Source: Comamonas granuli NBRC 101663
GTDB taxonomy: Bacteria > Pseudomonadota > Gammaproteobacteria > Burkholderiales > Burkholderiaceae_C
NCBI RefSeq assembly: GCF_000739995.1
Contig: NZ_BBJX01000021.1
Span: forward strand, 1-40,568
Direction: 5' to 3'
Length of the DNA: 40,568 nt
The notes below the pieces were generated by a model that saw nothing but the letters and a program-made list of their open reading frames with translations, made no database searches and had not been told where the DNA came from. Positions 30,885-40,568 of the stretch are shown in pieces. Position 1 is the first letter of the stretch; each line of letters opens with the position of its first letter. Position numbers and translations under genes: made by a program.

Positions 30885-33555
30885 TATCCGTGCCATCGTC
30901 CACCCGGTTGCGGCCGGCGGCCTTGGCGCGGTAGAGGTGCGCGTCGGCGCGCGCCAGCAACTGCTCGGGGGTGGTGCCCGCGTGCGGCACCTCGCTGGCC
31001 ACGCCGATGCTGACGGTGACCACCGGCACCACCTGCGAGCCGGCGTGCGCCAGGCCCCGCGCCTGCACCGCCCGGCACAGCGCCTGGGCCTTGGCGCGCG
31101 CGCCGTCCAGGTCGCATTCGGGCAGCAGGCAGACAAATTCTTCCCCGCCGTAGCGGGCCACCAGGTCGTGCGAACGCCCCAGCCCCGCGCGCAGCACCTC
31201 GGCCACGGCGCGCAGGCAGGCGTCGCCCTGCTGGTGGCCATAGAGGTCGTTGTACTGCTTGAAGTGGTCGATGTCGATCATCGCCAGCGCCAGCGGCTTG
31301 CTGCTGCGGCGGCAGCGGCGCCATTCGGCCTGCAGGCTGCGGTCGAACTGGCGGCGGTTGGCCAGGCCGGTCAACCCGTCCATGAAGGCCAGCTTGCGCA
31401 GCAGCTCCTGCTGCGCGCGCTGCTCGGTCTGGTCCACAAAGGTGGCCATGAAGTGGTCGCCGAACGCCAGCCCGCCGATGACCATGGTGTGCAGGCGCCC
31501 GTCGCGGTCGGTGACGCGGTATTCCTGGTCCGCGATCTCTCCGCCCTGGGCGCCGGCCTGGGCCAGGGCCGCGTTCCAGGTGGTGATGACCTGTTCGCGG
31601 TACTGCGGCTCGGGGTAGGCGCGCAGCCACCACTGCGCCAGCGTGGGCACCTCGTCGTCGGCGAAGCCGAACAAGTCCTGGAAACGCCGGTTGCGGAAGT
31701 AGATGGCCCCGGCAGCATCGACCATGCACAGGCCGATGGGCATCTCCTGCATCAGGTGCTTGAGCAGGCGCTCGGTCTCCTGCAACTGCAGCGACTGCTG
31801 CTTGGCCTGCGTCACGTCGTGGATGTAGCCATGCCACAGCACCGCTCCCGAGGCCGTGCGCGCCGGCCGTGCCTGCCCGCTGATCCAGCGCTCGCCGCGG
31901 CCCGGCACGCGCACGCGGTATTCGCAGCGCCACAGCTGCAGCGTCTGCGCCGACTGCAGCACGCTGTCGTTGAGCGCCGGCAGGTCGTCGGGGTGGATGC
32001 GCTCGAACACCTGCGCTGCGTCCGCGCGCAGCACCTGCGGCGGCAGGCCGTAGATGTCCTCCACGCCGCGGCTGGCGTAGGGGAAGTGGCTGCGTCCGTC
32101 GGGCTCGCGCTGGTACTGGTAGAGCGCGCCGGGCACGTTCTCGGCGAGCCGGTCCAGCGTCTCCTGGTGCTGGCGCTGCGCGGTGACGTCCGTGTGCGTG
32201 CCGATGAGGCGCAGCGGTCGGCCGCTGGCGTCGCGCTCCATGGCCTGCCCGCGGTCCTGCACCCACTTGTAGCTGCCATCCTTGCAGCGCAGGCGGTGCA
32301 CGTTCTCGTAGTACGCCGTCTCGCCGCGCAGATGGCGCTCCACATCGTCCATCACGCGCTCCAGGTCATCGGGGTGGACGCGGCTTTGCCACTCCTGCAG
32401 GCCGTTGCCGATGTCGTTGTCGCCATAGCCCAGCATGGATTTCCACACGGGCGAGAAGTACACCGTGCCCGCGGCCACGTCCCAGTCCCACACGCCCTGC
32501 TGCGTGGCCTGCAGCACGGCCTGCCAGCGCGCCTGCAGCGTGGCCGTCTGCGCCGCCAGCGCCTGTTCGCGCCGCCAGAGCTGGCGGCGGCGCCGCTGGG
32601 TGAAACCCAGGCCCAGGGCCAGGGCCAGGCCGGCCAGCAGCCAGGTGCCGCCCAGCGTCCAGGCGCGGGCGCGCCAGGGGGCGAGCATCTGGTGCCAGTC
32701 GCGCCCCACGGTCACCACCAGCGGCTTGTCCATCTGCAGGTCGGCGGGGTGGATGGTGTGCATGGCCGTCAGCCGCGGCGCCTGCCCGGGCTCCAGCGGG
32801 CCGACGAACAGGCTCTCGGGCAGGCCGCTGTCGCGGTGCCGCTGGAACAGCGTGCCGGGCTGCGCCAGGTCCACGCCGAGCTGCTGCGCGTCGGCGGGCG
32901 CGCTGAGAAAGCGCAGGCCGTCGCCATGCGCCAGGGTGGCGACCACGTCGGGCGCATAGCGCACGGACTCCAGCAGGGTCTTGAACTCCTCCGGGTCCAG
33001 CGTGGCCGCCACCACGGCGGCCAGGCTGCCGTCGGGCGCGCGCACCACGCGCGCCAGGTTGATGGACCAGGCGCCCAGCCGCGTGCGAAACGGGGGGCTG
33101 ACGATCAGCGGGTTGTCCGGCGTGCCGGCCACGCGCAGCGCCGCCCGGAAATAGTCGCGGCTGGCAAAGTTCTCGCCCAGCAGCTCGTTGCGGTTGGAGG
33201 CGATCACCGTGCCCTGGGCGTCGAGCACGTTCAAGGTGCGCACGCTGGTCATGGCGTCGCTGAAGGCCTGCAGCCGCTCGCCGAGCCAGCGCGGCCCCTG
33301 CACCTGGGCGCGCCACTGCACCACGTCCTGGCGCAGGCTCAGCAGGGCGTGGTTGACGGCGTCGATCTGCCGGTACAGGTTCTCGTGGACGATGTGGGCC
33401 TGGTGCGTGATCTGCTGGCGCTCGCCCGCCTCGGTGTCGCGGTGCTCCAGCACCAGGGCGGCGCACACCATGGCCCCCAGAGCCAGCCACAGGGCGGCGA
33501 GCCAGGCCCATTCGCGGCGCAACCGCGGGTTGGGCGTTGTGGGACTTGGGCGCAA
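30874..33555 (-). CDS. Membrane diguanylate cyclase with periplasmic sensor and three PAS domains
   Basis: An 893-residue signalling protein making c-di-GMP. TM1 is about residues 15-37, a dCache-like periplasmic sensor 40-290 (SRDYFRAALRVAG, IVSPPFRT, GAWSINLARVVRAPDG), TM2 298-318, then PAS-PAC units near 340-460 (GVWDWDVAAGTVYFSPVW, VHPDDLERV), 470-590 (RIHPDDLPAL, WISGQARPARTASG) and 600-710 (IGLCMVDAAGAIYFRNRRFQ), and GGDEF 720-890. The active site GGEEF is at 803-807, with the inhibitory site RSHD at 794-797. No EAL domain. I chose TTG 33555: GAGGAG lies six bases upstream and the TM segment follows at once; earlier starts would run into trpC. Confidence 0.85.
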   Translation of the reverse strand: MRPSPTTPNPRLRREWAWLAALWLALGAMVCAALVLEHRDTEAGERQQITHQAHIVHENLYRQIDAVNHALLSLRQDVVQWRAQVQGPRWLGERLQAFSDAMTSVRTLNVLDAQGTVIASNRNELLGENFASRDYFRAALRVAGTPDNPLIVSPPFRTRLGAWSINLARVVRAPDGSLAAVVAATLDPEEFKTLLESVRYAPDVVATLAHGDGLRFLSAPADAQQLGVDLAQPGTLFQRHRDSGLPESLFVGPLEPGQAPRLTAMHTIHPADLQMDKPLVVTVGRDWHQMLAPWRARAWTLGGTWLLAGLALALGLGFTQRRRRQLWRREQALAAQTATLQARWQAVLQATQQGVWDWDVAAGTVYFSPVWKSMLGYGDNDIGNGLQEWQSRVHPDDLERVMDDVERHLRGETAYYENVHRLRCKDGSYKWVQDRGQAMERDASGRPLRLIGTHTDVTAQRQHQETLDRLAENVPGALYQYQREPDGRSHFPYASRGVEDIYGLPPQVLRADAAQVFERIHPDDLPALNDSVLQSAQTLQLWRCEYRVRVPGRGERWISGQARPARTASGAVLWHGYIHDVTQAKQQSLQLQETERLLKHLMQEMPIGLCMVDAAGAIYFRNRRFQDLFGFADDEVPTLAQWWLRAYPEPQYREQVITTWNAALAQAGAQGGEIADQEYRVTDRDGRLHTMVIGGLAFGDHFMATFVDQTEQRAQQELLRKLAFMDGLTGLANRRQFDRSLQAEWRRCRRSSKPLALAMIDIDHFKQYNDLYGHQQGDACLRAVAEVLRAGLGRSHDLVARYGGEEFVCLLPECDLDGARAKAQALCRAVQARGLAHAGSQVVPVVTVSIGVASEVPHAGTTPEQLLARADAHLYRAKAAGRNRVDDGTDTLS

Positions 33556-33652
33556 AAGTGGCTCCTCACGCTGGCTGCACACGACGGAGCGGCCACGCTG
33601 CGCCCCGGGCTCCGCCCCCGCGTTGCGCGAGCCGCTTTCATGATAGTACGCG

Positions 33653-33668
33653 GCGGCGGCGCCGCCGC
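33653..33668. repeat. 16-bp perfect GC palindrome after trpC
   Basis: GCGGCGGCGCCGCCGC lies 14 bp beyond the trpC stop on the minus strand. Without a loop or T-run it is a poor intrinsic terminator; it could pause polymerase. The remaining 33556-33682 gap holds the cyclase leader and no other gene. Confidence 0.35.
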
Positions 33669-33682
33669 GGGGCCTGTGCGCC

Positions 33683-34483
33683 TCAGGCGAACAGCCGTGC
33701 CAGCGCCAGGCCGGGGTCGGGCGCGCGCATGAAGGCCTCGCCCACGAGGAAGGCGTGGATGCCCGCGTCGCGCAGCGTGTGCACATCGTCCGGGCCGAGG
33801 ATGCCGGACTCGGTCACCAGCAGGCGGTCGGCTGGCACCTCCTGGCGCAGGTCCAGCGTGGTCTGCAGGCTGACCTCGAAGGTGCGCAGGTTGCGGTTGT
33901 TGATGCCCACCAGCGGCGTCTTGAGCCTGAGCGCGCGCTCGAGCTCATGCCCGTCGTGCACCTCGACCAGCACGGCCATGTCCAGGCTGCGGGCGATCTG
34001 CTCCATCTCGGCCATCAGGCCGTCCTCCAGGCAGGCGGCGATCAGCAGCACGCAGTCGGCGCCCATGGAGCGCGATTCGTAGATCTGGTACGGGTCGACC
34101 ATGAAATCCTTGCGCAGCACCGGCAGCGGGCAGCTCGCGCGCGCCTGCTTGAGGTAGTCGGGCTGGCCCTGGAAGAACTGGCGGTCGGTCAGCACCGACA
34201 GGCAGGCCGCGCTGACCGCGCCGTCGCCCGCGGCGTAGCTCTGCGCGATGTCGGCGGGCACGAAGTCCGCGCGGATCACGCCCTTGCTGGGGCTGGCCTT
34301 CTTGATTTCGGCGATCACGCCGGCCTGGCCGGTGGCGATCTTGGCGCGCAACGCACCCACGAAGTCGCGCGTGAGCACGCGGCTCTCGGCGTCGCGGCGC
34401 ATGTCGGCGAAGGACACGCGCTTTTGCGCGGCGGCCACTTCCTCGACCTTCACGTCGCAGATTTTTTTCAGGATGTCAGACAT
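33683..34483 (-). CDS. trpC: Indole-3-glycerol-phosphate synthase
   Basis: A 266-residue TIM-barrel enzyme converting CdRP to indole-3-glycerol phosphate. Motifs: [16 protein letters not shown] (about 56-71, active-site Glu and Lys), [53 protein letters not shown] and [12 protein letters not shown], with [11 protein letters not shown] at the end. Monofunctional, without a TrpF domain. Last gene of the trp unit; ATG 34483 is 27 bp after the stop of the small membrane-protein gene. Confidence 0.97.
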
Positions 34484-34510
34484 GCTTGCTTTCTTGCTCC
34501 CGGGGGAGCG

Positions 34511-34693
34511 TCAAGGTTCACGGCGCGCGCTGGGCGCCTGGCCCTCGGTGGGCGTGGCGGCAGAGGCCGGCCCCCGGAGCACCTTCATGACGATGCGGTG
34601 CATCACGATGCCCACGACGATGAACAGCAGCGAGACGCCCAGCGCGATCCAGGTGCCGGGGTCGTTCCAGATGGGGGCGTCCAGCAGGCCCAT
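34511..34693 (-). CDS. Small single-span membrane protein within the trp operon
   Basis: A 60-residue protein, start MGLLDAPIWNDPGTWIALGV. One hydrophobic segment (about 15-38: TWIALGVSLLFIVVGIVM) is followed by HRIVMKVLRG and a hydrophilic Ala/Pro/Glu tail, so a C-in orientation is likely by the positive-inside rule. It starts 11 bp after the trpD stop and ends 27 bp before trpC, on the same strand, with the same codon bias. I do not recognise the family. Being in the operon it would be co-expressed with tryptophan biosynthesis; its role is unknown. Confidence 0.65.
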   Translation of the reverse strand: MGLLDAPIWNDPGTWIALGVSLLFIVVGIVMHRIVMKVLRGPASAATPTEGQAPSARREP

Positions 34694-34704
34694 GGCGGGT
34701 GCGC

Positions 34705-35739
34705 TCAGGCCGCGAACTTCTGGGTGTAGACCACCAGCTCGTGCAGCTTGGCCAGGGCCGCACCGCTGGCCAGGGCCTGCTGCGCGCGGCGCAGGCCGTC
34801 CTCCAGCGAGCCGGCCACGTTGGCCGCATACAGGGCGGCGCCGGCGTTCAGGCAGACGATGTCGCGCGCCGGGCCTTCCTCGCCCTGCAGCACTTTCAAG
34901 AGCATGGCCTTGGATTCTTCGGGGTTGTCCACGCGCAGCGCGCGCGTGCCCGCCATGCGCAGGCCGAAGTCCTCGGGGTGGATCTCGTACTCGCGCACCA
35001 CGCCGTCCTTGAGTTCGCCCACCAGCGTGCCGGCGCCCAGGCTGATCTCGTCCAGACCGTCACGGCCGTAGACCACCAGCGCGTGCTCGGCGCCCAGGCG
35101 CTGCAGGGCGCGCACCTGGATGCCCACCAGGTCCTCGTGGAACACGCCCATGAGGATGTTGGGCGCGCCGGCCGGGTTGGTCAGCGGCCCCAGGATGTTG
35201 AAGATGGTGCGCACGCCCAGCTCCTTGCGCACCGGCGCCACGTTCTTCATGGCGGGGTGGTGGTTGGGCGCGAACATGAAGCCTATGCCCACGTCGCGGA
35301 TGCAGTCGGCGATCTGCGCGGGCTGCAGCATGATGTTCACGCCCAGCGCCTCCATGGCGTCGGCGCTGCCGCTCTTGCTGCTGACGCTGCGCCCGCCGTG
35401 CTTGCTGACCTTGCCGCCCGCGGCGGCGATCACGAAGGTGGCGCAGGTGGAGATGTTGAAGGTGCCCGCGCCGTCGCCGCCCGTGCCCACGATGTCCACG
35501 AGGTGCGTGGCATCCTGCACGTGCACCTTGTGCGAGAACTCGCGCATCACCTGCGCGGCGGCGGTGATCTCGCCGATGGTCTCCTTCTTCACGCGCAGGC
35601 CGGTGACGATGGCCGCGGTCATGACGGGCGAGAGCTCGCCGCCCATGATCATGCGCATGAGGTGCAGCATCTCGTCGTGGAAGATCTCGCGGTGCTCGAT
35701 GGTGCGCTGCAGCGCTTCCTGGGGGGTGATGGGGGTCAT
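34705..35739 (-). CDS. trpD: Anthranilate phosphoribosyltransferase
   Basis: A 344-residue enzyme joining anthranilate to PRPP. Motifs: [33 protein letters not shown] (the PRPP-binding GTGGD loop, about 78-95), [44 protein letters not shown] and [12 protein letters not shown]. Start ATG 35739 ([10 protein letters not shown]) has AAGGT upstream; a longer start at 35754 is possible. A large hairpin repeat lies between trpG and this gene. Confidence 0.96.
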
Positions 35740-35758
35740 GGAGATACCTTGCAATGGG

Positions 35759-35838
35759 ATAGCTGCTGGCGCTTGCTCTGCAACGGTTTCAGCCTGTTTT
35801 TATGCTGAAACGCTGATGGAGCAAGCGCTGGCAGCTAT
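35759..35838 (+). repeat. Stop-associated repeat, copy 7: two inverted arms forming a long hairpin between trpG and trpD
   Basis: ATAGCTGCTGGCGCTTGCTC (35759-35778) pairs with GAGCAAGCGCTGGCAGCTAT (35819-35838) with two mismatched positions out of 20, and an inner perfect stem GTTTCAGC (35786-35793) / GCTGAAAC (35804-35811) with a T-rich loop lies between. The right arm runs into the trpG stop codon, and the last trpG codons (GAT CAA AAA TAA) match the repeat's AT-rich tail. In trpGDC mRNA this would be a strong stem-loop. Confidence 0.75.
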
Positions 35839-36407
35839 TATTTTTGATCGAGGAAGTTCTTGAGCATGGCGTGGCCGTGCTCGGTGAGAATGCTCTCCGG
35901 GTGGAACTGCACGCCCTCGATGGGCAGCTCGCGGTGGCGCACGCCCATGATCTCGCCATCGTCCGTCCAGGCCGTCACCTCCAGCACTGCGGGGCAGCTC
36001 GCGCGCTCGATGGCCAGCGAGTGGTAGCGGTTCACGGTGAACTGCCGCGGCAGGCCCGCGAACACGCCGGTCTGTGTGGTGGTGATCAGGCTGGTCTTGC
36101 CGTGCATGAGCTGCTGCGCCCGCACGATGCGCCCGCCGTAGGCCGCGCCGATGCTCTGGTGGCCCAGGCACACGCCCAGGATGGGGAGCCTGCCGGCAAA
36201 GTGCTGGATCGCCGCCACCGAGATGCCGGCTTCCAGCGGCGAGCACGGGCCGGGCGAGATCACCAGGCGCTCGGGCGCGCGCGCGGCGATGCCCTCCAGC
36301 GTGATCTCGTCGTTGCGGAACACCTCGACCTCGGCACCCAGCTCGCCGAAGTACTGCACGATGTTGTAGGTGAAGCTGTCGTAGTTGTCGATCATCAAGA
36401 GCTTCAT
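35838..36407 (-). CDS. trpG: Anthranilate synthase component II (glutamine amidotransferase)
   Basis: A 189-residue class-I amidotransferase that supplies ammonia to TrpE. Start [20 protein letters not shown]; catalytic cysteine in [11 protein letters not shown] (about 75-85), oxyanion SPGPCSP, and the His/Glu pair in VQFHPESIL (near 168-176). It may also serve para-aminobenzoate synthesis, as TrpG does in some bacteria. The ATG overlaps the chorismate mutase stop by four bases, and the 3' end is formed by a repeat element. Confidence 0.96.
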
Positions 36408-36745
36408 GGCTCGCTCCCGTCCGAAACAGTGGCCGTGGCGCGCAGGCGCGCGAACTCGCGGTGCTCGAAGGCGATGTAGGCCTCCATCATGCTGCGGTAG
36501 ATGGCTTCGATGACGTCCGGCTCGCCGCCTTCGCGTTCGGCGCGCGCACGCACGCGCGCCACGATGGCCTCGATGCGCTCCTCGTCGCGCACCTGGGAGG
36601 CCGCCTGCTTGATGCGCGCGGCCTGCGTCATGTAGCCGCCGCGCGTGACCAGCAGGGGCACGAGCACGTCGTCCAGCGCGTCGATGCGGCGGCGCACGTC
36701 CTCCATGGTGGCGCAATGCTGGGTGTGTTCAATGGCGCGGCTCAT
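36404..36745 (-). CDS. Chorismate mutase (AroQ type)
   Basis: A 113-residue all-helical AroQ-class protein: [20 protein letters not shown] (about 14-33), then [29 protein letters not shown] and [18 protein letters not shown]. The conserved arginines and lysine that hold chorismate appear at R19 or R20 in helix 1 and K48 in ARIKQA. It turns chorismate into prephenate, the branch to Phe and Tyr, competing with TrpE. It overlaps trpE (ATGA at 36742-36745) and trpG (ATGA at 36404-36407), so its translation is tied to theirs. No signal peptide. Confidence 0.88.
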
Positions 36746-38241
36746 TCCAGTCCTTCCTCCACCAGTTCGGCCGCGCGCAGCAGGGCGCGGGCCTTGTGTT
36801 CGGTCTCGCGCCACTCCATCTCGGGCACGGAATCGGCCACCACCCCGGCGGCGGCCTGCACGTAGAGCATGCCGTCCTTGATGATGCCCGTGCGGATGGC
36901 GATGGCCACGTCCATGTCGCCCGCATAGCTCAGGTAGCCGCAGGCGCCGCCGTACAGGCCGCGCTTGGTCGGCTCGAGCCGGTCGATGAGCTCCATGGCG
37001 TGCACCTTGGGCGCGCCCGTGAGTGTGCCCGCCGGGAAGGTGGCCTTGAGCACGTCCATGCTGGTCATGCCGTCCTGCAGGATGCCCTCGACGTTGCTCA
37101 CGATGTGCATCACGTGGCTGTAGCGCTCGACGACGAAGGCCTCGGTCACCTTCACGCTGCCCGTCTTGGCGATGCGGCCGATGTCGTTGCGCGCCAGGTC
37201 GATGAGCATCACGTGCTCGGCGCGCTCCTTGGGGTCGTTCACCAGCTCCTGCTCGGCCGCCTTGTCCTTCTCGGGCGTGGCGCCGCGCGGCCGCGTGCCC
37301 GCCAGCGGGCGGATGGTGATCTTCTGCCCCTGCTCCGTGTGCTCCTGACGCACCAGGATCTCGGGGCTGGCGCCCACCACCTGGAAGTCGCCGAAGTGGT
37401 AGTAGTACATGTAGGGCGAGGGGTTGAGCGAGCGCAGCGCGCGGTACAGCGACAGCGGGCTCTCGGTATAGCGCTTGTGGATGCGCTGGCCCACCTGCAC
37501 CTGCATGAAGTCGCCCGCGGCGATCAGCTCCTTGGCCTGCTCCACGGCGGCCAGGTAATCCTGCTTGGCGAAGCTGCGCTGCGCCGGGTGGTGCTCGCTG
37601 GGCTTGACCACGGGCGCGCTCACCGAGTACCTGAGCTGGTCCTTGAGCGCACGCAGGCGCTTCTTGCCGCGCGCATAGGCCTCGGGCTCGGCCGGGTTGG
37701 CGTAGACGATGAGGTAGAGCTTGCCCGAGAGGTTGTCGATGACCGCCAGCTCCTCGCACTGCAGCAGCAGGATGTCGGGGCAGCCCAGGGTGTCGGGCGG
37801 GCAGGTGGCTTCGAGCTTCTTCTCGATGTAGCGCACCGCGTCGTAGCCGAAATAGCCCGCCAGGCCGCCGCAAAAGCGCGGCAGGCCCGGGCGCAGCGCC
37901 ACCTGGAAGCGCTTCTGGTAGGCAGCAATGAAGTCCAGCGGGTTGCCCGCGTGCGACTCCACCACCTGGCCGTCGGTCACGACCTCGGTGCGCGCGGCGC
38001 TGCCAAAGCCGCTGGCGCGCAGCAGGGTGCGCGCCGGCAGGCCGATGAAGCTGTAGCGCCCGAAGCGCTCGCCGCCCACGACGGATTCGAGCAGAAAGCT
38101 GTTGCGCCCGTCGCCCTGGGCATGGGCGAGCTTGAGGTACAGCGACAGCGGGGTTTCGAGGTCGGCAAAGGCCTCGGCGATGAGCGGAATGCGGTTATAG
38201 CCTTCGCGCGCCAGGCTCTGGAATTCGAGTTCGGTGATCAC
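36742..38241 (-). CDS. trpE: Anthranilate synthase component I
   Basis: A 499-residue enzyme turning chorismate into anthranilate with TrpG. The tryptophan-feedback site is visible as FLLESVVGGERFGRYSF (about 43-59, LLES motif). Catalytic blocks: VQVGQRIHKRY, PSPYMYYYHFGDFQVVGASPE, RPLAGTRPRGATPE, MLIDLARNDIGRIA, FPAGTLTGAPKVHAMELID and GLYGGACGYL. I chose GTG 38241 (V-I-T-E-L-E-F), which matches family length; GGGAG lies ten bases upstream, inside a small hairpin. Adding upstream codons to an ATG at 38298 would extend into the leader region. First structural gene of the operon. Confidence 0.95.
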   Translation of the reverse strand: MITELEFQSLAREGYNRIPLIAEAFADLETPLSLYLKLAHAQGDGRNSFLLESVVGGERFGRYSFIGLPARTLLRASGFGSAARTEVVTDGQVVESHAGNPLDFIAAYQKRFQVALRPGLPRFCGGLAGYFGYDAVRYIEKKLEATCPPDTLGCPDILLLQCEELAVIDNLSGKLYLIVYANPAEPEAYARGKKRLRALKDQLRYSVSAPVVKPSEHHPAQRSFAKQDYLAAVEQAKELIAAGDFMQVQVGQRIHKRYTESPLSLYRALRSLNPSPYMYYYHFGDFQVVGASPEILVRQEHTEQGQKITIRPLAGTRPRGATPEKDKAAEQELVNDPKERAEHVMLIDLARNDIGRIAKTGSVKVTEAFVVERYSHVMHIVSNVEGILQDGMTSMDVLKATFPAGTLTGAPKVHAMELIDRLEPTKRGLYGGACGYLSYAGDMDVAIAIRTGIIKDGMLYVQAAAGVVADSVPEMEWRETEHKARALLRAAELVEEGLE

Positions 38242-38251
38242 GGGGGGAGGA

Positions 38252-38266
38252 CTCCCTGCTGGGGAG
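38252..38266 (-). promoter_or_regulatory. Hairpin that sequesters the trpE Shine-Dalgarno
   Basis: On the transcript CTCCC-CAGCA-GGGAG forms a 5-bp stem; GGGAG is the best Shine-Dalgarno for the GTG at 38241. Pairing would lower trpE translation unless opened. Upstream, GCGGTGC and GCACCGC can also pair (38268-38306 region). Confidence 0.45.
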
Positions 38267-38360
38267 CGGTGCACCGCCGCAAGGGAACAAGGGCGCACCG
38301 CAGTTCATGGGGCAGGCCCGCCAGGGGCCAGGGGCGCACGCCGGGGTGTCCCGCGTGCTG

Positions 38361-38444
38361 TCAGCGATTCAGGCAGGCAGGCTTGCGCCAGGGCCAGGCT
38401 CCCCGGTCGCTGCGACCTGTGATGCACACGCGGTGGATGAACAT
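38361..38444 (-). CDS. trpL: Predicted trp operon leader peptide, 27 residues
   Basis: A short frame, ATG 38444 to TGA 38361, encodes MFIHRVCITGRSDRGAWPWR followed by KPACLNR. Two tryptophan codons (TGG CCC TGG, residues 17 and 19) stand near the end in a 27-residue peptide, the layout of a ribosome-mediated attenuator. It lies 120 bp before trpE. Right after the stop a hairpin forms (GCACGC-GGG...CCC-GCGTGC, 38336-38358), and the Trp-codon segment GGCGCA (38384-38389) can pair instead with TGCGCC (38333-38338), which overlaps that hairpin's base, so the two are mutually exclusive. No U-run follows, so the downstream mechanism is unclear. The AUG coincides with the expected +1, hence leaderless. 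Confidence 0.6.
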   Translation of the reverse strand: MFIHRVCITGRSDRGAWPWRKPACLNR

Positions 38445-38450
38445 GGGCGC

Positions 38451-38459
38451 AGTGTAGCA
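38451..38459 (-). promoter_or_regulatory. Extended -10 promoter of the trp operon
   Basis: On the minus strand TGCTACACT matches the extended -10 (TGn then TACACT, four of six with both key A/T positions). Six bases follow before the A of the trpL ATG, exactly where transcription should start. The -35 region (CTGCTG at 17-bp spacing) is poor, as is common with extended -10 promoters. Confidence 0.5.
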
Positions 38460-38555
38460 AATGCGCCCGGCCGCAGCAGCGCCGGCGCGGCCGTTCCCCC
38501 TGGGAAACCCTGATGCGCCTGCCGCCGCAAGCCGGCACAATTGGTTGCAGAAAGT

Positions 38556-38567
38556 GCACGATCGTGC
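38556..38567. promoter_or_regulatory. 12-bp perfect palindrome upstream of the chalcone-isomerase-like gene
   Basis: GCACGATCGTGC is centred 25 bp before the ATG at 38587, in the divergent trp/chalcone-isomerase gap (38445-38586). It could be an operator or a small hairpin. The rest of the gap, apart from the trp promoter, shows nothing I can name. Confidence 0.35.
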
Positions 38568-38586
38568 TTTTATTGTGAGGTTCCCT

Positions 38587-39168
38587 ATGCGCAAGGTACT
38601 ACCCCTTCTTTCCCTGGTTGCAGCCCTGTGCTGGACGGGCGCAGCGCACGCGGCCGTAGAGATTGCCGGCGTCAAGGTGGAGGACACCATCACCGTCGGC
38701 GGGACCAAGCTCCAGCTCAATGGCGCGGGCATCCGCTACAAGGGCCCGTTCAAGGTCTACGTGGGCGACCTCTACACCACGCGCCCGGTCAAGTCGCTCG
38801 ACGAACTGATCGCCGCCCCCGGGCCCAAGCGCCTGAGCATGACCTTCGTGCGCGAAATCAATTCCGGGGAGTTCGGCAAGCTGCTCACGCGCGGCATCGA
38901 GGACAACGTCAGCCGCCAGGAGCTCTCCAAGATCATCCCGGGCATGATCAAGATGGGCGACATCTTCGCCGCCAACAAGGCCTTCGCGCCGGGCGACGTC
39001 TGCGCCCTCGAATGGGACCCGGCCAAGGGCCTGAGCATCTGGGCCAAGGGCAAGCTGCAGTCCGAGCCCTTCCAGGATCCGGCCTTCTTCCGCGCGCTGA
39101 TGTCCATCTGGTTCGGCCAGAGCCCGGCCGACTGGAAGCTCAAGGAAGAGCTGCTGGGCATCAAGTAG
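38587..39168 (+). CDS. Secreted chalcone-isomerase-like protein
   Basis: A 193-residue protein with a clear signal peptide (MRKVLPLLSLVAALCWTGAA, cleavage after AHA at 22) and the bacterial chalcone-isomerase-like fold: VEIAGVKVEDTITVGGTKLQ, LNGAGIRYKGPFKVYVGDLY, KRLSMTFVREINSGEFGK, and a C-terminal FFRALMSIWFGQSPADWKLK. Bacterial members are not known to isomerise chalcones; fatty-acid or lipid binding has been suggested for fold relatives. Expected in the periplasm. GAGG lies six bases before the ATG. The gene stands alone, divergent from trp and closed by a strong terminator. Confidence 0.85.
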   Translation: MRKVLPLLSLVAALCWTGAAHAAVEIAGVKVEDTITVGGTKLQLNGAGIRYKGPFKVYVGDLYTTRPVKSLDELIAAPGPKRLSMTFVREINSGEFGKLLTRGIEDNVSRQELSKIIPGMIKMGDIFAANKAFAPGDVCALEWDPAKGLSIWAKGKLQSEPFQDPAFFRALMSIWFGQSPADWKLKEELLGIK

Positions 39169-39200
39169 CAGGCCCATGGAACGCAGTGCATCCGCCTCTG

Positions 39201-39229
39201 AAAACCTGTCCTCGGGGCAGGTTTTTTTT
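39201..39229 (+). terminator. Rho-independent terminator
   Basis: AAAACCTGTCC-TCG-GGGCAGGTTTT forms an 11-bp stem (one G-U pair) with a triloop, followed by a run of T to 39229. It ends the transcript of the chalcone-isomerase-like gene 32 bp after its stop. Confidence 0.92.
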
Positions 39230-39237
39230 GCGCTGGC

Positions 39238-39261
39238 GCGCTGTCGCCTGGCCGACAGCGC
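39238..39261. repeat. Second hairpin, upstream of the chemoreceptor gene
   Basis: GCGCTGTCG-CCTGGC-CGACAGCGC is a perfect 9-bp stem with a 6-nt loop, 9 bp beyond the terminator. No T-run, so it is either a back-up stop or part of the next gene's leader. The 39230-39371 gap holds no gene, and no sigma-28 promoter (TAAA-N15-GCCGATAA) was found. Confidence 0.45.
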
Positions 39262-39371
39262 CCCGCCGCGTTCAGGCATAGCCTTGCTGCTGCACCGGGC
39301 GCTGGGGCGGCTGCCGCCCAGGGCATAGGCATCTGCGCATTCCTCCATCGCTTCGCAAGGTACTGATCCAC

Positions 39372-40568
39372 ATGAATATCAACAAGCTCCGCGTCGGACT
39401 CCGCCTGGGCCTGGGCTTTGGCGTCATCCTCCTCATCACGGCCGTGCTCGCGCTCTCGGGCATCTGGCGCATCGGCGCGCTCAAGGAGGCGGGCGAGCGT
39501 GTCGCCACGCGCGAGATCGAGAAACGCTCCCTGGTGGAGGACTGGGCCGCCGACGTGCGCCTGAACTGGGTGCGCACCGAGGCCTTCCTCAAGGCCATCG
39601 ACACGGCCTACATGGAAAAGCTCACGGCCGACTCCCAGGCCACGGCCGCCGCCAGCGAGGGCAAGGTCCAGCGCATCGAAACCCTGGTGCAGGACAGCCA
39701 GGGCAAGGCGCTGCTGGCCGCCATCACCGCCACGCGCGATGCCTACCAGACCAAGCTCGCCGAAATCCGTGAACTGCACCGCAACGGCGAGCCCGCCGTG
39801 CCCACCCTGGTGGACGAGCAGTTGCGCCCGCTGGCCGACAAGTACCTGCAGGCCCTCGATGCGCTGCGCACCTACATGGCCACGCAATTGACCGCGGGCC
39901 AGCAGGACAGCGTGGCCATGGCCGAGGCCAGCCAGGTGCTGCTGGGCGTCGGTGCCTGCGTGGCCCTGGCGCTGGGCGCCCTCATGGCCTGGATGGTGAC
40001 GCGCTCCATCGTCGCGCCGCTGCGCCAGGGCATCCAGGCGGCCGAGAAGATCGCGGGCGGCGACCTCACCCAGCCGCTGGAGACCACGGCGCGCGACGAG
40101 ACCGGCCAGTTGCTGCAGGCGCTGGCCGACATGCAGTCGCGGCTGGCCGCCATCGTGAGCGAAGTGCGCCACAGCGCCGAAGGCGTGGCCACGGCCAGCG
40201 CCGAGATCGCCCAGGGCAACCACGACCTCTCGGCGCGCACCGAGCAGCAGGCCAGCGCGCTGCAGCAGACCTCGGCCTCCATGGAGCAGCTCGGCTCCAC
40301 CGTGCGCCAGAACGCCGACAACGCGCGCCAGGCCAACCAGCTCGCCGTGAACGCCTCCAGCGTGGCGCAGCAGGGCGGCGAGGTGGTGGGCCAGGTGGTC
40401 GAGACCATGAAGGGCATCAGCAACGCCAGCAGCAAGATCGCCGACATCATCGGCGTGATCGACGGCATTGCCTTCCAGACCAACATCCTGGCGCTCAACG
40501 CCGCCGTGGAGGCGGCGCGCGCGGGCGAGCAGGGCCGGGGCTTTGCCGTGGTGGCCAGCGAGGTGCGC
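39372..40568 (+). CDS. Methyl-accepting chemotaxis protein, truncated by the window edge
   Basis: 399 residues are visible, open at the right edge. TM1 is about 11-32, a four-helix-bundle-type periplasmic sensor 33-188, TM2 189-209, HAMP 211-263 ([37 protein letters not shown]), then the coiled-coil signalling domain with the adaptation region [20 protein letters not shown] (288-307, likely methylation helix) and the receptor tip [20 protein letters not shown] (364-383) that binds CheA and CheW. The sequence type is that of Tar/Tsr-like receptors of Comamonadaceae. ATG 39372 ([10 protein letters not shown]) has AAGG 11 bases upstream. Ligand unknown. Confidence 0.93.

Follow-up and report, generated by a model that had tools for sequence, protein, structure and literature searches.

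A conserved Trp-Pro-Trp leader frame, predicted to be leaderless, precedes trpE in Comamonas granuli and its relatives

How might a leader sense tryptophan and set trpE expression when its start codon appears to lie at the transcription start and no U-tract follows its hairpins? This question is raised by the minus strand of the window, the whole 40,568-nucleotide stretch of Comamonas granuli NBRC 101663 DNA analysed here. The trpE gene (36742..38241; Pfam Anth_synt_I_N plus Chorismate_bind) starts from a GTG at 38241 and is followed in the trp operon by a chorismate mutase-like frame, trpG, trpD and trpC; the segment between trpE and trpG (36404-36745, minus strand) encodes a chorismate mutase type II domain (Pfam CM_2). 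Directly 5′ of trpE lies a short frame with clustered Trp codons, MFIHRVCITGRSDRGAWPWRKPACLNR plus stop (38361..38444), whose translation we infer from the conservation of the frame. This frame, trpL, extends over 27 codons from an ATG at 38444 to a stop at 38363-38361 and contains the Trp-Pro-Trp codons TGG CCC TGG at 38388..38396. A putative extended −10 promoter, TTTGCTACACT (TGn plus TACACT; 38451..38461), precedes it, with the core TGCTACACT at 38459-38451. Six bases separate TACACT from the ATG, so that the usual +1 would be the A of the ATG and trpL is predicted to be leaderless. Both the frame and this promoter placement had been described in an initial annotation of the DNA, and both held up. 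The plus strand carries a divergent chalcone isomerase-like gene (Pfam Chalcone_3) at 38461-39168; since its longest listed ORF begins on the trp promoter, its true start is probably further in.

The sequence upstream of trpE was read at the best 80 of 573 confirmed named trpE loci, whose owners we take to be Comamonadaceae, the nearest named relatives, and in 30 relatives' genomes. The core GGGGAGCCTGGCCCTGG was present with at most 3 mismatches at 79 of the 80 named loci; the contig of the remaining one (L065) ends 163 bases upstream. A pattern consisting of GCTACACT, 4-12 bases and an ATG fitted 91 of 97 core-bearing loci. All 91 frames were open from the ATG to the stop with at least two Trp codons each, 81 of them having 27 codons and 89 exactly two Trp. 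The six non-fitting loci had a variant −10 (L056, L057, L067), a promoter outside the slice (L071) or a broken frame (L084), or belonged to another family (L104). Rows dropped were L065 for its contig end, L056, L057, L067 and L071 for the −10 just described, L104 and L111 as members of other families, and L084. In this last locus, from a genome of the window's genus (G010), CTG replaces the ATG, the reading frame is interrupted and the promoter is separated from the RGAW region by about 110 additional bases; the leader has apparently decayed. The leader of another genome of the genus (L086) is identical, in the aligned part, to that of Simplicispira metamorpha (L032), which probably makes the window's bacterium kin to Simplicispira.

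A search with a sequence model of the block from the −10 to RGAWPWR found matches in 265 of the 299 family genomes sampled, among them 245 of the 267 high-quality ones, and in 127 of 141 genera. The trpL site was the only significant match in the window's own genome (E 3.4e-22; next match E 0.19). Order-wide, the model matched 5 of 120 sampled genomes, three of them from the window's family, the window's own genome included; the two outside the family had E values of 1.3e-5 and 0.0088. Of the 34 family genomes that the model did not match, 14 were inspected: two had no trpE match at threshold, and 7 of the other 12 loci were analysable. Among genomes without a match, G168 has a divergent candidate leader (L250) with a GTG start and the sequence ...QGAWVWRRRS. 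Judged by these comparisons, the −10, ATG, frame and Trp codons of the window are conserved beyond chance. The initial annotation had named lack of conservation of the frame and its Trp codons in relatives as grounds for abandoning its proposal; the comparison came out the other way, across the family.

The promoter and the start codon keep their close spacing throughout. Across 161 loci, comprising 98 distinct −10/spacer combinations that fit the search pattern, the gap between the −10 and the ATG ranged from 6 to 11 bases, and GCTACACT was exact in 90 of the 98. The base 5′ of the ATG was C in 79 of the 98 distinct spacers, which fits a pyrimidine at −1 and a purine at +1. By eye, no conservation was seen 5′ of TTTGC, and a promoter scan of 33000-40568 that required a −35 motif returned no site. 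No Shine-Dalgarno (SD) tetramer was present within 20 bases of the trpL ATG in any of 142 leader starts, as opposed to 93 of 142 trpE starts; such tetramers were also uncommon in six control windows upstream (5/107 to 23/107), so their absence at trpL is by itself weak evidence. The two marks of a leaderless mRNA, a −10 directly before the start codon and no SD, were nevertheless found together, and the promoter spacing supports a trpL that is leaderless or nearly so. As regards the leaderless translation put forward in the initial annotation, the abutting promoter and the missing SD stand, initiation itself being deduced from the spacing. The literature searched gave no transcription-start data for this group among the matches listed, and the term trp was absent from the accessible main text of the Burkholderia and Cupriavidus papers PMC4603805 and PMC7563307. 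Two loci have the promoter and no recognisable sensor: L245 (genome G102) keeps TTTGCTACACT 66 bases before trpE with no W-W leader frame found, and L246 (genome G115) keeps TACACT before trpE with no trpL frame found. They may have lost the sensor naturally while retaining the promoter, and a −10 kept without a leader frame fits the element being the trpE promoter.

Variation within the frame bears the marks of translation and of RNA structure together. Between codons 2 and 20, variability is highest at third positions (0.124, vs 0.080 and 0.058 at the other two). TGG CCC TGG is invariant in all 47 distinct 27-codon frames and RGAWPWR nearly so. Synonymous sites within the frame are frozen as well: codon 10 is GGT and codon 18 CCC in 47/47, and codon 14 is CGG in 46/47. 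Variability is moderate at codons 5-9 and much higher at codons 21-27. The frozen synonymous sites, combined with the varying codons 5-9 and 21-27, point to RNA structure and Trp sensing. They also speak against conservation of the frame for a trans-acting peptide, as proposed for Sinorhizobium peTrpL, in preference to cis regulation. Such a role would suit the near-invariance of RGAWPWR, and a trans role for a leader peptide is described in the portion of PMC7298713 available to us; we consider this explanation very improbable here.

Two overlapping hairpins can form within the frame. H2 (CAGGT:GCCTG, GCG:CGC, CCGGGG:CCCTGG; 38378..38419) spans the Trp codons and excludes H2′ (GGTCG-CAG-CGACC; 38405..38417), which ends exactly before GGGGAGCC. 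For H2, 87.9% of the cells were paired, against 86.1% in shuffles; neither this value nor the covariation score was reached by any of 500 shuffles, and the number of pairs changed on both sides was reached by 143 of 500. At the position of H2′, a stem of at least 4 bp was present in 88 of 103 distinct leaders, in some with other sequences, and 11 leaders, of which ten are Hydrogenophaga-like, had no stem. At control positions, stems of at least 4 bp appeared in 3 to 45 of the 103, the overlapping position −1 giving 69. Within the aligned set, 89.4% of H2′ cells were paired (reached by 56/500 shuffles) and 3 pairs were changed on both sides (6/500), while partners slid by −3 gave a higher covariation score, 0.211 vs 0.142. 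Comparison of the sequences thus lends support to each of these two putative hairpins, which share bases, the covariation of H2′ being modest.

Downstream of the frame, the post-stop hairpin of the initial annotation was located at 38336..38358 (hairpin B, GCACGCGGGACACCCCGGCGTGC). A possible hairpin C (GGCCC...GGGCC; 38315..38329) and a hairpin D (38266..38301), which precedes the trpE SD and is among the top-scoring paired columns, follow. Relative to shuffles, mean folding z was −0.99 for the frame, −0.71 for the post-stop segment that holds B (n=117 leaders), −0.90 for the middle segment that holds C (n=87 leaders), −0.99 for the pre-SD segment that holds D and +0.13 for the trpE start region, which shows no excess structure. 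Applied to the 41 sequences of the wide alignment A2, RNAalifold returned 14 pairs, none changed on both sides, probably because the post-stop part misaligns. A further alignment, A3, comprised 77 of 78 listed frames, L064 being left out.

Could B, C or D act as an intrinsic attenuator without a proper U-tract? The B and D segments do fold better than shuffles and the D columns covary. In the window, however, the longest T run between the trpL stop and trpE is 2, which leaves it without a U-tract, as the initial annotation had remarked; of the 142 family leaders, only 18 have a T run of at least 5 in the interval from stop to SD, and no U-tract is conserved across this set. A terminator scan of 33000-40568 yielded one site, located elsewhere, against 3.4 in shuffles. 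The sister family f8 is more favourable to such attenuation, with T runs of at least 5 in 15 of 20 analysed leaders, by eye directly after the hairpin in L193 and L201. In several leaders of the sister families the U-run at the distal box (see below) lies 4-5 nt after the hairpin, and is perhaps less a terminator tail than a box for pairing. All in all, we regard intrinsic attenuation as unlikely.

Control could instead be exerted on trpE translation, with the leader folding onto the trpE start region (SD, spacer CTCCCC or start codon) and a ribosome stalled at the Trp codons setting it free. The window has a 5-bp CTCCC/GGGAG hairpin (within 38266-38252) over the trpE SD, AGGGAG (38252..38257), which the initial annotation had taken to hide it. 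The hairpin exists, but of 137 distinct leaders only 24 have an SD hairpin of at least 5 bp with an upstream arm, and folding of the trpE start region does not exceed chance; SD occlusion by this hairpin was rejected and a hidden SD as the control point is left unsupported. Ribosome positions were imposed on folds of 142 leaders (156 with recognised ends, minus 13 identical copies and L186; the trpE start was not recognised by the script in L131, L142, L162, L180 and L187). The mean unpaired probability of the SD was 0.402 for the free leader, 0.397 with the ribosome stalled, 0.38 with the ribosome at the stop and 0.341 during initiation, and these folds revealed no switch to a downstream output structure and no consistent shift of SD accessibility with ribosome position: stalled minus stop exceeded 0.1 in 33/142 and was below −0.1 in 24/142. 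In some species the folds speak for translational control, SD accessibility with the ribosome at the stop falling from 0.377 to 0.168 in L014 and from 0.438 to 0.054 in L188. In Acidovorax-like leaders, moreover, GGGGAG 5′ of the Trp codons is able to pair with a CTCCCC immediately 5′ of the GTG, and in part of the Hydrogenophaga clade the leader AUGUUCA matches a UGAACAU that includes the trpE AUG. A direct anti-start helix (AUCAC:GUGAU plus GGGGAG:CUCCCC) was attractive in Acidovorax-like leaders; as many other genera have not kept CTCCCC before trpE, it was not adopted as general. Translational control of this kind is a possibility to be taken seriously, albeit one we hold to be improbable.

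Across the family, the data thus support neither SD occlusion nor an intrinsic terminator. With no conserved U-tract and no special folding at the trpE start, elimination leaves a non-intrinsic, Rho-like off state as the most likely one. The median C/G ratio of the leaders was 1.29, against 0.85 upstream; its closeness to that of the trpE start (1.24) makes it weak evidence for Rho. We would give about an even chance to the proposal, built on sequence comparison, that trpL is a leaderless, Trp-codon-based ribosome sensor of the trpE operon whose off state is non-intrinsic, with Rho-like termination the most likely form. Transcription would start at the A of the trpL ATG, or a few bases from it, and translation would be leaderless. 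When Trp-tRNA is scarce, the anatomy of the leader suggests that the ribosome would stall at TGG CCC TGG, cover nt ~31-61 and block H2 as well as H2′; with ample Trp, it would proceed to the trpL stop codon. The resulting choice of structure would determine trpE expression, the off state consisting of premature, Rho-like termination within the C-rich leader.

The distal part of the leader may add a further element to this sensor. About 50-80 bases before trpE, many leaders carry a box, GAAUGAAC, whose complement is found in their start region, GUUCAUUC. The window's box, ATGAAC (38303..38308), is complementary to leader nt 3-8 (GTTCAT, 38442-38437); this putative long-range helix, H1, could have only 6 bp there (GUUCAU:AUGAAC) and is absent from the minimum-energy fold. 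Matched changes were seen in L092 and L171, where GUUUAUUC in the start region goes with GAAUAAAC in the box. A motif-anchored covariation test of the helix between the 5′ end and the box was negative, 292 of 384 cells being paired against a permutation mean of 290.3 (reached by 1707/5000 permutations, kinship ignored). An unanchored duplex test that compared own with swapped post-stop regions was positive, its value being reached by 3/5000 permutations over 106 family leaders, and by 28, 72 and 183 of 5000 in subsets of 21 divergent, 19 Hydrogenophaga-like and 73 main-clade (clade A) leaders, kinship again being ignored. An earlier duplex scan against shuffled sequence had given a mean z of −0.83 over 91 loci.

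A comparable pairing can be drawn in two sister families of the same order, f8 (L099, L190-L215) and f32 (L220-L237), of which 20 of 27 and 14 of 23 loci, respectively, entered the pairing tests. Their trpL frames resemble those of the window's family in having a related core, A-W-P/L-W-R (GACCGGGGAGCCTGGCCCTGGCG, with the RGAWPWR core, is found in several f32 leaders too), in lacking an SD (0/14 in f32, 0/20 in f8) and in a distal box with which the 5′ portion of the frame can pair. They differ in that no −10 abutting the ATG was seen by eye, TATAGT-like boxes lying further upstream in several, and in that many have T runs at the box. Codons 3-8 (e.g. AAUAAAAAACGGA) pair with the box (UCCGUUUUUUAUU), in f32 over up to 13 bp and with quite different sequences (L229, L237). 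Partners change together, as CAAUAAA/UUUAUUG in L197, GCAAACGCAU/AUGCGUUUGC in L226 and the 13 bp of L237. The pairing totals with own partners were reached by 2/5000 permutations in f32 (n=14) and 13/5000 in f8 (n=20), kinship ignored, although the own partner outranked all others in no more than 2 of 14 f32 rows and 4 of 20 f8 rows. As a comparable helix is predicted in the sister families, the pairing seems older than the leaderless promoter. Within the sensor proposed above, the distal box and the 5′ end would probably close the complete leader into one multibranched fold and shut its own start codon. A bolder version makes the 5′ end the switch of a terminator-free trp regulator: the box would capture the leaderless AUG, box pairing and ribosome entry being mutually exclusive, and ribosome traffic over trpL, stalled or not, would set the fold of the whole operon and thereby Rho access or mRNA decay, such a helix occurring with differing sequences in at least three families of the order. 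We offer this version as speculation and rather doubt it.

Database searches did not place the leader in a catalogued class. Rfam returned no trp leader for the window region up to E 5, its two matches being sub-threshold lncRNA hits, and none for four sister-family loci; neither Pfam nor NCBIfam matched the trpL peptide. Some of these leaders may be listed in Vitreschak et al. 2004, a comparative survey. The literature searched, at the level of titles and abstract starts, described no trp attenuator of this group among the matches listed, and the accessible portions of PMC8632094 and PMC4833913 make no mention of one.

A large and clearly delimited bacterial family would thus have a trp attenuator frame that is apparently leaderless and lacks a U-tract. 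Its entry step, at a bare AUG, and its off step, which is not an intrinsic terminator, would both depart from the textbook case. The pairing between start region and box, which recurs with differing sequences in three families, provides a concrete helix to mutate, and the presence of leaderless and ordinary versions in sister families makes the evolution of a leaderless sensor directly testable.

Attenuators of the Escherichia coli trpL type consist of a short frame with close Trp codons 5′ of trpE and of overlapping, mutually exclusive hairpins. The trpL of the window resembles them in its close Trp codons before trpE and in two putative hairpins that overlap the frame and would exclude each other; it differs in having no SD, a promoter that abuts the ATG, no U-tract terminator, and Trp-Pro-Trp in place of Trp-Trp. 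A leaderless trpL is known from Sinorhizobium, and a version in the present family, as predicted here, was not found described among the matches listed in the literature searched. According to the part of PMC7298713 available to us, the transcript of Sinorhizobium meliloti trpL (rnTrpL) is leaderless, begins on the trpL ATG before trpE and encodes a 14-aa peptide. The predicted transcript of the window likewise starts on the trpL ATG, 5′ of trpE. As no terminator is predicted at the window's trpL, a released sRNA of the rnTrpL kind is not predicted either. The two leader peptides are set apart by length, 27 aa against 14 aa, and by host, a betaproteobacterium in one case and an alphaproteobacterium in the other.
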